Origin: an uncultured Alphaproteobacteria bacterium
Lineage (GTDB): Bacteria > Pseudomonadota > Alphaproteobacteria > HIMB59 > GCA-002718135
DNA: 64,000 nt
Direction of reading: 5' to 3'
NCBI GenBank assembly: GCA_902621305.1
Contig: CACNLM010000001.1
Coordinates: 1 to 64,000 of the forward strand
Within the stretch, counting starts at the first letter, position 1. Each line of letters opens with the position of its first letter. A program made the position numbers and the translations under genes. Positions 24,840 through 28,870 of this stretch are shown here, one piece after another. The notes under the pieces are model-generated. The model had not been told where the DNA came from, searched no databases, and saw only the letters and a program-made list of their open reading frames with translations.

Positions 24840-26036
24840 ATGGAAAATATAGAGACTAAAGAATTAAATACCGCATTTTATGCAACTTTTTCACAAGGAT
24901 TCTTTGCAACATTAACCTTCAGTATGTTTATGGTAAATTCACCAATTCTTTTTGATTTGATTGATATGACAAAAATAGAATTTTCTATAGGATTTATTAT
25001 TTTTGGTATTTGTAATGTAATTACAAACCAACTTACAACCCGTTTTTTACTCCCAAAAATAGGAAGCACAAATTGTTTAATTATAGCAAGATTATTATAT
25101 GCTTTTATTCCGTTTTCTGTGTTTTACTTTTCTTCTTATAATTTTTTTATTTTTGTATCTATGTTGTGGGGTATTTCTATTGGAATACAAGCTCCTAATA
25201 TTTTTACACAAGTTGCGATAATAGAAGAAAAAACAAAAAAAATTCTTAATCCAATATTTAAATCATCCTTTAATTTTGGTTTTCTATCTGGAGCAGGAAT
25301 ATCTAGTTTATGTCTTGGTTTGGAAATTAACCCTGTCTACACTACTTTTATTGTAGGTTTGTTTGTTTTTATATCAACTTTGACTATGTATTTCTTTGGA
25401 ATGAATATGAAATATGATGTTGTTAATAAGGATCCAAGATTTTCAATTCCAAATTATAAAATTATCATGTTTGCATCAATTAACATGTGTATTATCGCAT
25501 TTATGGGAATAATAATTCAATGGTCACCTTTATGGCTCGTTACCGATCTTGCTGCACCAATTTTTTTAGTTGGTTCAATAGTTATTTTTTTTAATTTAGG
25601 TGAGATTATAAGTAATATGTTTGCGTCAAAATTAATTACAAAACTTGGTGAAGTAATTGTAGGTCCTTGTTTTGCAATGATTGGATCAACAATATTAGTG
25701 ATAAGTATTTTTTCTCAAAATATAATTATTATTTTTATAGCAATAACACTTTTTGGAATGTTAATTTCCAATGTTATGCCTATAGTATTTAGACAAGCAG
25801 TAAAAAATTCTCAAAATCCAATTCCAGTTACTATTTCTCATGTATCAAGTATTGCTTTTGTCGGAGCTATATTTGGACCTGCGGTTGTTGGAATTTCAGC
25901 TGAAACTTTTGGTTTAACATTTAATATGTATGCATTAGGCGTTATAATGTTTTTGATTGCTCTACTAATGTTTTTTATAATGCGTGAAGATAAATTGGTA
26001 GGAGTAGAGGGAATCGAACCCACACCACCGAAGTGA
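24840..26036 (+). CDS. MFS-type transporter; 3' end runs antisense into tRNA-Leu
   Basis: About 12 hydrophobic segments; C-terminus GVEGIEPTPPK is encoded by the antisense of the tRNA-Leu 3' half. Confidence 0.75.
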   Translation: MENIETKELNTAFYATFSQGFFATLTFSMFMVNSPILFDLIDMTKIEFSIGFIIFGICNVITNQLTTRFLLPKIGSTNCLIIARLLYAFIPFSVFYFSSYNFFIFVSMLWGISIGIQAPNIFTQVAIIEEKTKKILNPIFKSSFNFGFLSGAGISSLCLGLEINPVYTTFIVGLFVFISTLTMYFFGMNMKYDVVNKDPRFSIPNYKIIMFASINMCIIAFMGIIIQWSPLWLVTDLAAPIFLVGSIVIFFNLGEIISNMFASKLITKLGEVIVGPCFAMIGSTILVISIFSQNIIIIFIAITLFGMLISNVMPIVFRQAVKNSQNPIPVTISHVSSIAFVGAIFGPAVVGISAETFGLTFNMYALGVIMFLIALLMFFIMREDKLVGVEGIEPTPPK

Positions 26037-26080
26037 CCGGATTTTGAATCCGGCGCGTCTACCAGTTCCGCCATACTCCC
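25996..26080 (-). tRNA. tRNA-Leu (CAA), CCA encoded
   Basis: GGGAGTATGGCGGAACTGGTAGACGCGCCGGATTCAAAATCCGGTCACTTCGGTGGTGTGGGTTCGATTCCCTCTACTCCTACCA: acceptor GGGAGTA/TACTCCT, CAA anticodon in TTCAAAA loop, long variable arm, GGTTCGATTCC T arm. Confidence 0.95.
26038..26080 (-). repeat. Direct repeat copy 1 (5' half of intact tRNA-Leu)
   Basis: 43 nt cggattttgaatccggcgcgtctaccagttccgccatactccc, identical to 28154..28196. Confidence 0.95.
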
Positions 26081-26321
26081 ATATTATTTTTCCCACTAAT
26101 ACTGGGTTTTCAAAGTTAAGTCTATGGGCTTGTTTTAGAAAAACAATTACCAAAAGTGTCGTGAGAGTGTCGGTTAATTATTGTCTAAAACTGGGAATGT
26201 TGAGAGATTATTTAAATTTCTTATTTCTCTTTTCAATAAATTCATTTCTTTTATCTTTTCGAGATTTTGTTCTTGTATGTTCATCTTCAAAATTAAATTT
26301 TCAACCACTTTGTTATTTGCT

Positions 26322-28004
26322 TCATTCACATACTACAGGATAAAAATCAAAATTCTGTTTATCTAAATAATTTAAACGATTAGGTAAATGCTTTACAATT
26401 TTATCATAATTTTTTTTAGATATAGAGCTAGGCTTGCATCTAGTTGCAAACCACCATAGTGTAGTCTCCGCTAAATCTTCTTCGTAAAATAGATCCCAGG
26501 CATATTCTGAAATATAGTATTTGTCCTCTCCAATTACTGTTTTCCATTCATCTTCATCTATCACTCCAGTACCCCACTTAAAATCAAGTGAAGCATGCGT
26601 TAATTCATGAAACATAAGTTCCTCATTAAAAGAGGATTTTTCACTATGAATATGAATGACAATTTGACCATTACCACCGGCCCAGCCAACGTTACCTTTA
26701 TGGACCACAATATATTTTACATTTTGTTTTAAAAAATATGGCATTTGTCCATACATTTTGGCCCATTTCAATGCTTGTTTTTCTGCTTTTTCTTGTGTTT
26801 TGAATTCAGCATTTACTTTAATCAAAATATCCTGACTTTTTTCAAAAGATGCATTAAAAATGAAAGCATTAAAGACTTTCATTTCTATTCCATCCCCATA
26901 TTGATTTTTATTTTTTGAAGTTCTTTTATCATATTCCATGACTTCTTTTTCTTCCACAAACTTTAATGTCTTGAAACTACTCACATCTTTTTTTGTCATA
27001 ATTTTATTATTAGTCCAAAGACTATTTAAAAGAATAAAATTTTTTACTTCTTTAATTAATTTTGCACATTTATACCCATCAAACTCACACACTCTAGTTG
27101 AGCCGTCCCAAGCTATAATTTCACCTTTACCTTCCAGTTTATCATTTTTCCATGTGCCAATCCATTTTTCACCATCCTCAGCCCAAGTTAGTTCGCCCTC
27201 TCCGTGTAGTGAACCATCTTTGAAATTACCTATGTACTTATTACCATCATCCCAAACGACTGTACCATATCCATTTTCACAATTTCCTTCAATACAACCT
27301 ATTCCTTCTCCATACATTTTACCATTTTTCCATTTACCTTCATATGTGTCTCCATTCACCCAAACCATCTTTCCTTGTCCATGTTCTTCTCCGTTTTCCC
27401 ACTCACCTTCATATGTGTCTCCATTCGCCCAAACTATCTTTCCTTGCCCATGTTCTTCTCCGTTTTTCCACTCACCTTCATATGTGACTCCATTCACCCA
27501 AACCATCTTTCCTTGTCCATGTTCTTCTCCGTTTTCCCACTCACCTTCATATGTGTCTCCATTCGCCCAAACCATTTTTCCTTGTCCATGTTCTTTCCCT
27601 TTTTTTGACTCACCTTCATATTTGGTACCATCTTCCCAAACGTATGTTCCTTGTCCATTCATACAATTTCCTTCAATGCAGCCCGTCTGATTTAAAACAT
27701 CAGAAGCAACTTCTTCCCAAACAATCTGTTTTCCAATTGCAAAGGGCTTACATGTATTAAATATACCCTTTGTTTTTTTCCATTTATCACATTCATTTAA
27801 TGCAGTCTCTTGATCAGGTCCACGACCATATTCACAACGTCCATTATCACCAATAACAGCATAGAAATAAGCATTTGGGTATTGTTGCAATTCTTCAGGA
27901 TAAGCCTCATTAGTTATCCATGAGCAAATCTCTTGGGAAAAAACTTGATTAGTAAAATAAAAAAAAATCCCAAAAAAAAGAAATATTATCTTTGATTTAT
28001 TCAC
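26322..28004 (-). CDS. Secreted MORN-repeat protein with C-terminal HExxH (putative metallopeptidase-like) domain
   Basis: Signal peptide; YPNAYFYAVIGDNGRCEYGRG segment; about 8 MORN units (GxGxxxWxNGxxYEGEWxNG); C-terminal FHELTHASLDF...EEDLAETTLWWFA. Confidence 0.88.
   Translation of the reverse strand: MNKSKIIFLFFGIFFYFTNQVFSQEICSWITNEAYPEELQQYPNAYFYAVIGDNGRCEYGRGPDQETALNECDKWKKTKGIFNTCKPFAIGKQIVWEEVASDVLNQTGCIEGNCMNGQGTYVWEDGTKYEGESKKGKEHGQGKMVWANGDTYEGEWENGEEHGQGKMVWVNGVTYEGEWKNGEEHGQGKIVWANGDTYEGEWENGEEHGQGKMVWVNGDTYEGKWKNGKMYGEGIGCIEGNCENGYGTVVWDDGNKYIGNFKDGSLHGEGELTWAEDGEKWIGTWKNDKLEGKGEIIAWDGSTRVCEFDGYKCAKLIKEVKNFILLNSLWTNNKIMTKKDVSSFKTLKFVEEKEVMEYDKRTSKNKNQYGDGIEMKVFNAFIFNASFEKSQDILIKVNAEFKTQEKAEKQALKWAKMYGQMPYFLKQNVKYIVVHKGNVGWAGGNGQIVIHIHSEKSSFNEELMFHELTHASLDFKWGTGVIDEDEWKTVIGEDKYYISEYAWDLFYEEDLAETTLWWFATRCKPSSISKKNYDKIVKHLPNRLNYLDKQNFDFYPVVCE
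27306..27587 (-). repeat. 69-bp MORN-encoding tandem repeats with 138-bp higher-order periodicity
   Basis: GQGKMVWANGDTYEGEWENGEEH / GQGKMVWVNGVTYEGEWKNGEEH alternate A-B-A-B. Confidence 0.85.
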
Positions 28005-28153
28005 TTTAAAAATTTCCCTTTCAAAAATTTTTCACCAAATAAAATATACTATTAAATACAAGAAAATTTAAATTAAAAAGTGCCTTATAAGTGTCTATAT
28101 AAAATTATTTGCTAAAGAATAGGAGATTATATTAAAATTAATGTGAAAATGAT

Positions 28154-28196
28154 CGGATTTTGAATCCGGCGCGTCTACCAGTTCCGCCATACTCCC
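28154..28196 (-). pseudogene. Truncated tRNA-Leu 5' half (direct repeat copy 2, putative att remnant)
   Basis: Perfect 43-nt copy of 26038..26080; no 3' half (T arm/acceptor) follows. Confidence 0.92.
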
Positions 28197-28258
28197 TTAT
28201 TTGATATTTACTCTTGTTTTAATTATTAATCTATTAGTTTCAATTATTTATTTATTTT

Positions 28259-28870
28259 TTATTTTGATTGTCTTTTCATATTAAATTTTGAAGAAATAGT
28301 TGTATACTCACTATATCCCATTCTTGCTATATATCGCATTGAAACACTATCAACTCTATTATTCTTAATATATTTGTTATTTATAAAAATTCCAATTACT
28401 TCACCGACAATCATTGTAGAAATCTTTTTTGAATTAGATTTTAATTTAATTGTTTTAACTAATTTACATTCTAAATTTACAGGACTATCTTTAACTGATG
28501 GAGCTTTAACAAGTCTTGATTTTTTCTTTTTTAAATTTGACAATATAAACTCATCTTCATCTGGTTTGAAATCCCTGGAAGATACATTCATTTGATTTCG
28601 TGAAGTGGAGGTTGCAAAATTTACAACAAATTCCTTTGTAGACAAAATATTTGATAACGAATCCTTATATTTTCCATGTGTTGAACTACCATTTGAACAA
28701 AACATCACTTGTGGCGGCTCATCAGCCACAGCATTAAAATATGAATAAGGTGCTAAGTTAGCAACTCCATTTTTATTAATAGATGATATCCATCCAATAG
28801 GTCTAGGAAAAACTAGTGACTTAAATGGATCTATTTTAAAAGGACTTCCCTTTTTTGGCTCATAAAACAT
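28259..28870 (-). CDS. Flavin reductase-like (FMN-binding split barrel) family protein
   Basis: FPRPIGWISSINKNGVANLAPYSYFNAVADEPPQVMFCSNG. Confidence 0.85.
   Translation of the reverse strand: MFYEPKKGSPFKIDPFKSLVFPRPIGWISSINKNGVANLAPYSYFNAVADEPPQVMFCSNGSSTHGKYKDSLSNILSTKEFVVNFATSTSRNQMNVSSRDFKPDEDEFILSNLKKKKSRLVKAPSVKDSPVNLECKLVKTIKLKSNSKKISTMIVGEVIGIFINNKYIKNNRVDSVSMRYIARMGYSEYTTISSKFNMKRQSK

Follow-up and report, generated by a model that had tools for sequence, protein, structure and literature searches.

Among the islands catalogued by Islander, 5′ fragments of the target tRNA gene are found in 159 of 3,919, compared with 3,760 carrying 3′ fragments (PMC4383910), and a passage of PMC6563490 attributes islands with a 5′ tDNA fragment to Zhao and Williams (2002). 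Archaeal pTN3-like integrases likewise duplicate the 5′ half of the tRNA gene and leave the recombinant tRNA on element-supplied sequence, their integrase gene being split on integration (PMC8371274). Additive flexible genomic islands, described in the streamlined marine groups Actinomarinales (PMC7771536) and Methylophilaceae (PMC10872708), consist of small cargo cassettes at tRNA genes with direct repeats of part of the tRNA, and the portions of these two reports drawn on here describe no mechanism. The tycheposons of Prochlorococcus, as summarized in PMC10872708, are tyrosine-recombinase cargo elements of 4–200 kb at tRNA genes of streamlined aquatic bacteria. In tRNA-dependent lysogeny, the target tRNA is split and unrestored, and a tRNA of that isotype is provided by the element itself (PMC10865867). 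Passages of PMC7771536 state that prophages are rare in Pelagibacterales and count having no identifiable mobile elements among the traits held in common with Pelagibacterales.

Here we describe an unusually well-resolved tRNA-directed cassette of the additive-island type, which belongs to the rare 5′-half-restoring class, is bacterial and has no integrase of its own. It lies in the 64,000-nucleotide stretch of DNA analysed in this study (the window), and in related genomes the same tRNA hosts a series of such cassettes, mostly without the moving enzyme. SAR11 bacteria are among the most abundant marine bacteria, and the tRNA-Leu locus offers this group a precisely bounded way to gain and lose single genes, one that is hidden from integrase-based island searches. 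We consider it highly probable that the focal 2,116-bp unit is a non-autonomous, trans-mobilised integrative cassette of a SAR11 element family targeting tRNA-Leu(CAA).

The only tRNA detected by ARAGORN in the window was tRNA-Leu(CAA) on the minus strand. Its 5′ half (26038–26080) recurs identically over 43 bp and in the same orientation at 28154–28196, and at 95% identity the repeat widens to 55 bp (26031–26085 and 28147–28201), with a spacing of 2,116 bp between the copies. Neither ARAGORN nor a tRNA match search found a tRNA 3′ half beyond the second copy, which was also the sole further match to tRNA-Leu(CAA) in the whole assembly (1.45 Mb, 87% complete). A chance repeat was ruled out, as a 43-mer repeat is expected only ∼4e-24 times within 64 kb. 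A first-pass annotation of the locus had reported the perfect 5′-half copy with no 3′ half after it and, between the copies, one large MORN-repeat ORF and no integrase; the former was confirmed by these searches and the latter by ORF and Pfam analysis. The coordinates of all features are listed in Table 1.

Table 1. Features of the tRNA-Leu(CAA) locus (positions in the window)
Feature	Position	Strand	Description	Basis
Flank: MFS transporter gene, convergent	24840..26036	+	Last 41 bp antisense to tRNA 3′ half; kept in relatives	
Intact tRNA-Leu(CAA)	25996..26080	-	Native 3′ half; element-supplied 5′ half 26038-26080	ARAGORN, in-silico excision and empty-site comparison
Integrated unit, 2,116 bp	26040..28155		Crossover core to crossover core	Copy spacing; excised join against six empty loci
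Minimal crossover core, tRNA positions 36-41	26040..26045	-	Second copy 28156-28161	Overlap of all 5′ (shortest 1-41) and 3′ fragments (latest start 36)
Element left arm	26081..26173	-	New tRNA upstream; boxes TAGACT 26119-26124 and TATTAG 26096-26101; paired repeats CGACACTCTCACGACACTTTT 26152-26173	
Cargo gene, 560 aa	26322..28004	-	MORN repeats, then conserved C-terminal domain with HELTH (HExxH) motif	Pfam
Element right arm	28076..28095	-	Paired repeats GACACTTATAAGGCACTTTT, matching the left-arm repeats	
Stranded native tRNA-Leu 5′ half	28154..28196	-	43 bp identical; 28147-28201 at 95%	
Native tRNA-Leu upstream and promoter region	28197..28258	-	Orphaned upstream of the 5′ fragment	79-85% to upstream DNA of seven empty loci
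Flank: flavin reductase-like gene	28259..28870	-	Adjoins tRNA-Leu in empty loci too	

The locus was found in relatives through the flavin reductase gene, the tRNA was then searched for in 101 genomes of the genus, all of them incomplete single-cell or metagenome assemblies, and the surrounding stretches were compared. In six of the empty loci (L100, L109, L111, L114, L118 and L119), the flavin reductase stop codon was followed after 67–71 bp by an intact tRNA-Leu and the convergent MFS gene. In-silico removal of the 2,116-bp unit at the core restored an intact tRNA and gave one unbroken 1,484-bp alignment of 94–95% identity with each of these six loci, whereas the alignment split in two when the unit was left in place. 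Sequence preceding the stranded 5′ fragment was 79–85% identical to the tRNA upstream DNA of seven empty same-clade loci, to which the DNA upstream of the intact tRNA was just 31–43% identical, and the stranded fragment lies 63–73 bp past the flavin reductase stop, compared with 67–74 bp for the tRNA start in the empty genomes. From the upstream identities and the restored empty locus, we conclude that the element replaced the 5′ half of the tRNA and its upstream DNA.

With a restored tRNA and a displaced fragment bounding the insert in the same orientation, the unit has the layout of a tRNA-targeting integrative element, and with native upstream DNA at the fragment and element DNA at the intact tRNA, that of the 5′-half-restoring island class. 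The 5′-fragment islands of Islander have in common with it that the island lies between an intact tRNA and a 5′ fragment displaced in like orientation, that the crossover is in the anticodon loop, and that the DNA upstream of the restored tRNA is element-derived. The initial proposal of an att-like, tRNA-targeting insertion that duplicates the 5′ half and supplies the upstream DNA of the intact tRNA is therefore upheld by the excised join and by the upstream comparison; other cargo between the same repeats, which it had anticipated, was present in many relatives, and neither of the outcomes held to speak against it (a lack of empty sites or a simple tandem duplication) occurred. In two empty loci of another clade (L063 and L129), the native tRNA upstream DNA was 62–64% identical to the focal element-supplied upstream and 26–47% identical to the focal native upstream, a likeness that hints at a possible origin of the element's promoter.

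Across the genus, a single stretch contained the two flanks together with an intact tRNA at 41 loci. Eleven of these loci were empty (one with a 140-bp excess), 22 carried extra DNA on the 5′ side only, 5 on both sides and 3 on the 3′ side only, giving totals of 27 with 5′-side inserts and 8 with 3′-side inserts. Fragments of the 5′ part (from tRNA positions 1–41 to 1–63) were found upstream of the intact tRNA in 19 genomes, and fragments of the 3′ part (from 25–85 to 36–85) downstream of it in 7. The six positions common to all of them cover the anticodon loop and stem edge between the perfect dyad CCGGATT/AATCCGG, which bears out the crossover near the anticodon loop suggested at first pass. 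Unlike in Islander, the 5′ class is the major one at this locus (19:7 compared with 159:3760; Fisher p ∼5e-21, the 26 genomes being related and not independent). Four genomes (G074, G119, G084 and G030) contained stacked arrays of two or three elements. In two others, one cargo gene lies between two full tRNA-Leu copies (100/100% in G010 and 96/100% in G072).

The MFS ORF enters the 3′ end of the tRNA by 41 bp (25996–26036), and the crossover falls just beyond this ORF; an overlap of 40–41 bp was found again in relatives. Since a 3′ fragment beside the MFS gene would still encode the MFS C-terminus, the overlap may preserve 3′ fragments.

Paired repeats flank the core on both sides of the focal unit. 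Other elements have other arm motifs (ACGCTCATACGACGCTTT; GTTGACCATTTGTTGACC; GATTCCCTATGGATTCCCTGTG), each in two copies 11 bp apart. Over 26 elements, the right and left arms of one element matched at 17.0, compared with 11.5 ± 0.8 when permuted, and 0 of 20,000 permutations were as high. In 34 of the 52 arm windows, the best short repeat had a lag of 11, compared with 7% of shuffles and 4% of core DNA; this unselected count is preferred to the 23 of 28 obtained with a smaller hand-picked set. Paired repeats with an 11-bp period are what arm-type integrase sites spaced by one helical turn would look like, and those on both sides of the focal core are, by this pattern, predicted to bind integrase. 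The focal left arm also contains the boxes TAGACT-N17-TATTAG, 15 nt ahead of the tRNA. A TAGACT-like box near −44 preceded 55 of 80 full tRNA copies, compared with 1.4% by chance, in a loose positional count whose misses include native promoters with the box at ∼−38. The left arm probably drives the intact tRNA as its new promoter.

No cognate integrase was found in the focal genome at its 87% completeness, where the sole tyrosine recombinase (365 aa) is on another contig and is carried by nearly every genome of the genus. Three elements in relatives encode an intact tyrosine recombinase of 332 aa (PF00589; PHROG integrase) ∼80–120 bp past the tRNA or fragment; among solved structures, its best relative is 5c6k, deposited as ‘Integrase’. 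In G073 the recombinase follows a 1–62 fragment, as a 5′-half element, and in G035 a 1–48 fragment; in G002 it follows the intact tRNA and the element ends in a 25–85 fragment, as a 3′-half element. The R-K-H-R-H-Y residues are common to all three integrases, and those of G073 and G002 are 85% identical. The records of the integrase-bearing relatives name uncultured Alphaproteobacteria single cells and one Pelagibacteraceae MAG (AG-457-F14, AG-457-E22 and SI047_bin126), and we infer that the single cells too belong to SAR11. The first-pass annotation had pointed to a tyrosine recombinase with this att core as the enzyme to look for, and a cognate family was found beside tRNA-Leu fragments in relatives.

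The right arm of G073 is common to seven cargo-only 5′-half elements (G071, G063, G014, G074, G119, G062 and G005), of which G005 and G062 retain the integrase leader and first codons, and the right arm of G002 is common to four cargo-only 3′-half elements (G029, G012, G101 and G030). In G081, only the N-terminal third of the integrase is left, after a 1–63 fragment. Given the shared arms and the integrase-start remnants, the integrase-less units derive from integrase-bearing ones, and the latter can plausibly serve the former. The focal arm family (GACACTT type) is linked to an integrase only via the truncated copy of G081 and the similar repeats of G035. As the focal unit contains no integrase gene, we class it as a non-autonomous relative and not as an autonomous island, and an integrase filter such as that of Islander would reject it.

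Of the integrase, excisionase-like HTH protein and primase of phage satellites, the focal unit has none, but all three occur at this tRNA in the G002 element (∼9.5 kb), which encodes the integrase, a primase-like protein, a CHC2 zinc ribbon and the HTH protein. The focal boundaries are tRNA-Leu fragments and not the attC sites of integron cassettes, no integron integrase is present, and the related integrase scored weakly on the integron integrase model (20.7 against a cut-off of 265). In contrast to the archaeal pTN3-like systems, the present system is bacterial, and the 332-aa integrase is wholly inside the element or absent. The focal unit resembles the additive islands and, compared by description, the tycheposons, but at 2.1 kb and one gene it is smaller than the latter, and polarity, arms, related integrase and empty sites, for which the consulted portions of the additive-island reports offer no mechanism, are resolved here. 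Phage records yielded only distant integrases, all <60% with the best among the matches listed at 32%, and their tRNA matches were ordinary tRNA homology. Related integrases of 330–350 aa were also seen beside tRNA-Arg, tRNA-Gln or tmRNA at five loci of the same genus (L143, L148, L155, L144 and L146), so the integrase family has other targets in the genus.

The MORN repeats of the cargo gene matched Pfam PF02493 (E 2e-40), and two relatives at the same locus (L058 and L116) comprise the C-terminal domain only. The structure model was weak outside the MORN repeats (pLDDT 60, with most of the C-terminal part <50), and no PADLOC defence model matched the gene. Other cargos at the locus include an RNase T-like exonuclease, a polysaccharide lyase, an SNase, a DNA methylase with HNH, an HNH nuclease, an FkbM methyltransferase and a rhodanese. 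For G095 (L138), DNA identity to the focal genome was 86.3% for the MORN gene and 89.6% for the 240-bp left arm, compared with 65–80% for eight core genes near the site. In G105 (L102), the MORN gene was 98.2% identical and the core genes 87–94%, and the left arm was unrelated and of another arm family. Because cargo and left-arm identity exceed core-gene identity, the cassette has moved between lineages, and the cargo has done so without its arm as well; these identities show horizontal transfer of the focal cargo. Similar movement was seen for other cargos, among them a gene pair that was 93–95% identical between a 5′-half element (G063) and a 3′-half element (G101).

In the mechanism that we favour, an integrase-bearing relative would supply the tyrosine recombinase in trans, and recombination would take place between the anticodon loop of the tRNA (attB) and an attP that combines paired arm-type binding repeats with a promoter and a 5′ half of the tRNA. 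On integration, the tRNA would receive its present 5′ half and promoter from the cassette, and the native ones would be left stranded 2.1 kb away. Such a unit may still be mobile; neither an excised circle nor a mixture of empty and occupied sites in one strain was seen in these incomplete single-cell and metagenome assemblies. The first-pass annotation had offered a decayed element, a satellite using an integrase in trans, or an unusual 5′-half-targeting class, and a satellite-like, trans-moved cassette in the 5′-half-restoring class fits best. Decay of an autonomous element, in which a satellite or prophage lost its integrase once it had integrated and then became fixed, with arms that are leftovers and nothing moving in trans, would agree with the missing cognate integrase of the focal genome and with the truncated integrases and integrase-start remnants of G081, G005 and G062. 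We judge it unlikely, because both arms and the 43-bp core are still intact, the same cargo and left arm recur in a distant lineage and are there more similar than the core genes, and integrase-less units with many different single cargos far outnumber integrase-bearing ones at the site.

Homologous recombination between tRNA-Leu copies and flanks, with no site-specific recombinase, could draw on the shared 43–62 bp of tRNA identity, and the swaps of cargo between arm families suggest some homologous or recombinase-independent shuffling, but the conserved paired arm repeats with 11-bp spacing on both sides, the tyrosine recombinases encoded nearby with their catalytic R-K-H-R-H-Y residues, and a crossover restricted to the anticodon loop all suit site-specific recombination, and we regard the homologous route as a decidedly improbable source of the unit. 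A tandem duplication that took in the tRNA, one copy of which later decayed, might cite the 43–55 bp direct repeat in the same orientation and the two full tRNA copies of G010 and G072. It was rejected as hardly credible: the upstream DNAs of the two copies are unrelated with one side matching empty sites, excision restores the exact empty locus, and arms and cargo are common to several genomes.

The locus provides a natural comparison for the old question of why integrases nearly always duplicate the tRNA 3′ half. As near-identical integrases serve both fragment types, the duplicated half seems to depend on which part of attP, 5′ or 3′, reproduces the tRNA faithfully, and the 85% identity between integrases of the two kinds makes the 3′-half rule look like a property of attP, by which the native promoter is kept, and not of the enzyme. 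The left arms of several 3′-half elements still contain promoter-like boxes and a degenerate 5′ half; together with the double copies of G010 and G072, possibly the ancestral state, they suggest, as a hypothesis, a whole-tRNA attP in which either half may decay. A significant degenerate opposite half was found in five arms (L081, p=0.001; L061, p=0.007; L094, p=0.005; L087, p=0.022; L095, p=0.045), and most arms, including the focal right arm (p=0.48), were not significant; degenerate halves were accordingly rejected as general proof of a whole-tRNA attP. More tentatively, and with less than even confidence, we suggest that families of cassettes with one to a few genes could share tRNA-Leu(CAA) of SAR11 as a docking site and be moved in trans by integrases that are nearly identical. 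The duplicated half would then be interchangeable and set by attP, the ancestral attP would have comprised a whole tRNA with promoter of which either redundant half may decay, and cargo would cross arm families, so that a streamlined genome would have a cassette system other than integrons.

Two further observations concern neighbouring systems. For fGI-2 of Methylophilaceae, the section of PMC10872708 that describes it gives the repeat as the last 20 bp of tRNA-Lys (ACCAGCTGAGCTAATCCCCC), which reads GGGGGATTAGCTCAGCTGGT on the other strand; this resembles a tRNA 5′ end, and the Methylophilaceae islands may also be of the 5′-half class. In G122 (L079, contig C1, 7431–12316 in tRNA orientation), tRNA-Leu is split (1–41/32–85) and unrestored, and no intact host copy was found in this 79% complete genome. 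Between the parts lies an element with a complete tRNA-Leu(CAA) of its own and a tyrosine recombinase of 429 aa, an arrangement that looks like tRNA-dependent lysogeny (PMC10865867) at the same site, from which the focal locus differs by its restored tRNA.
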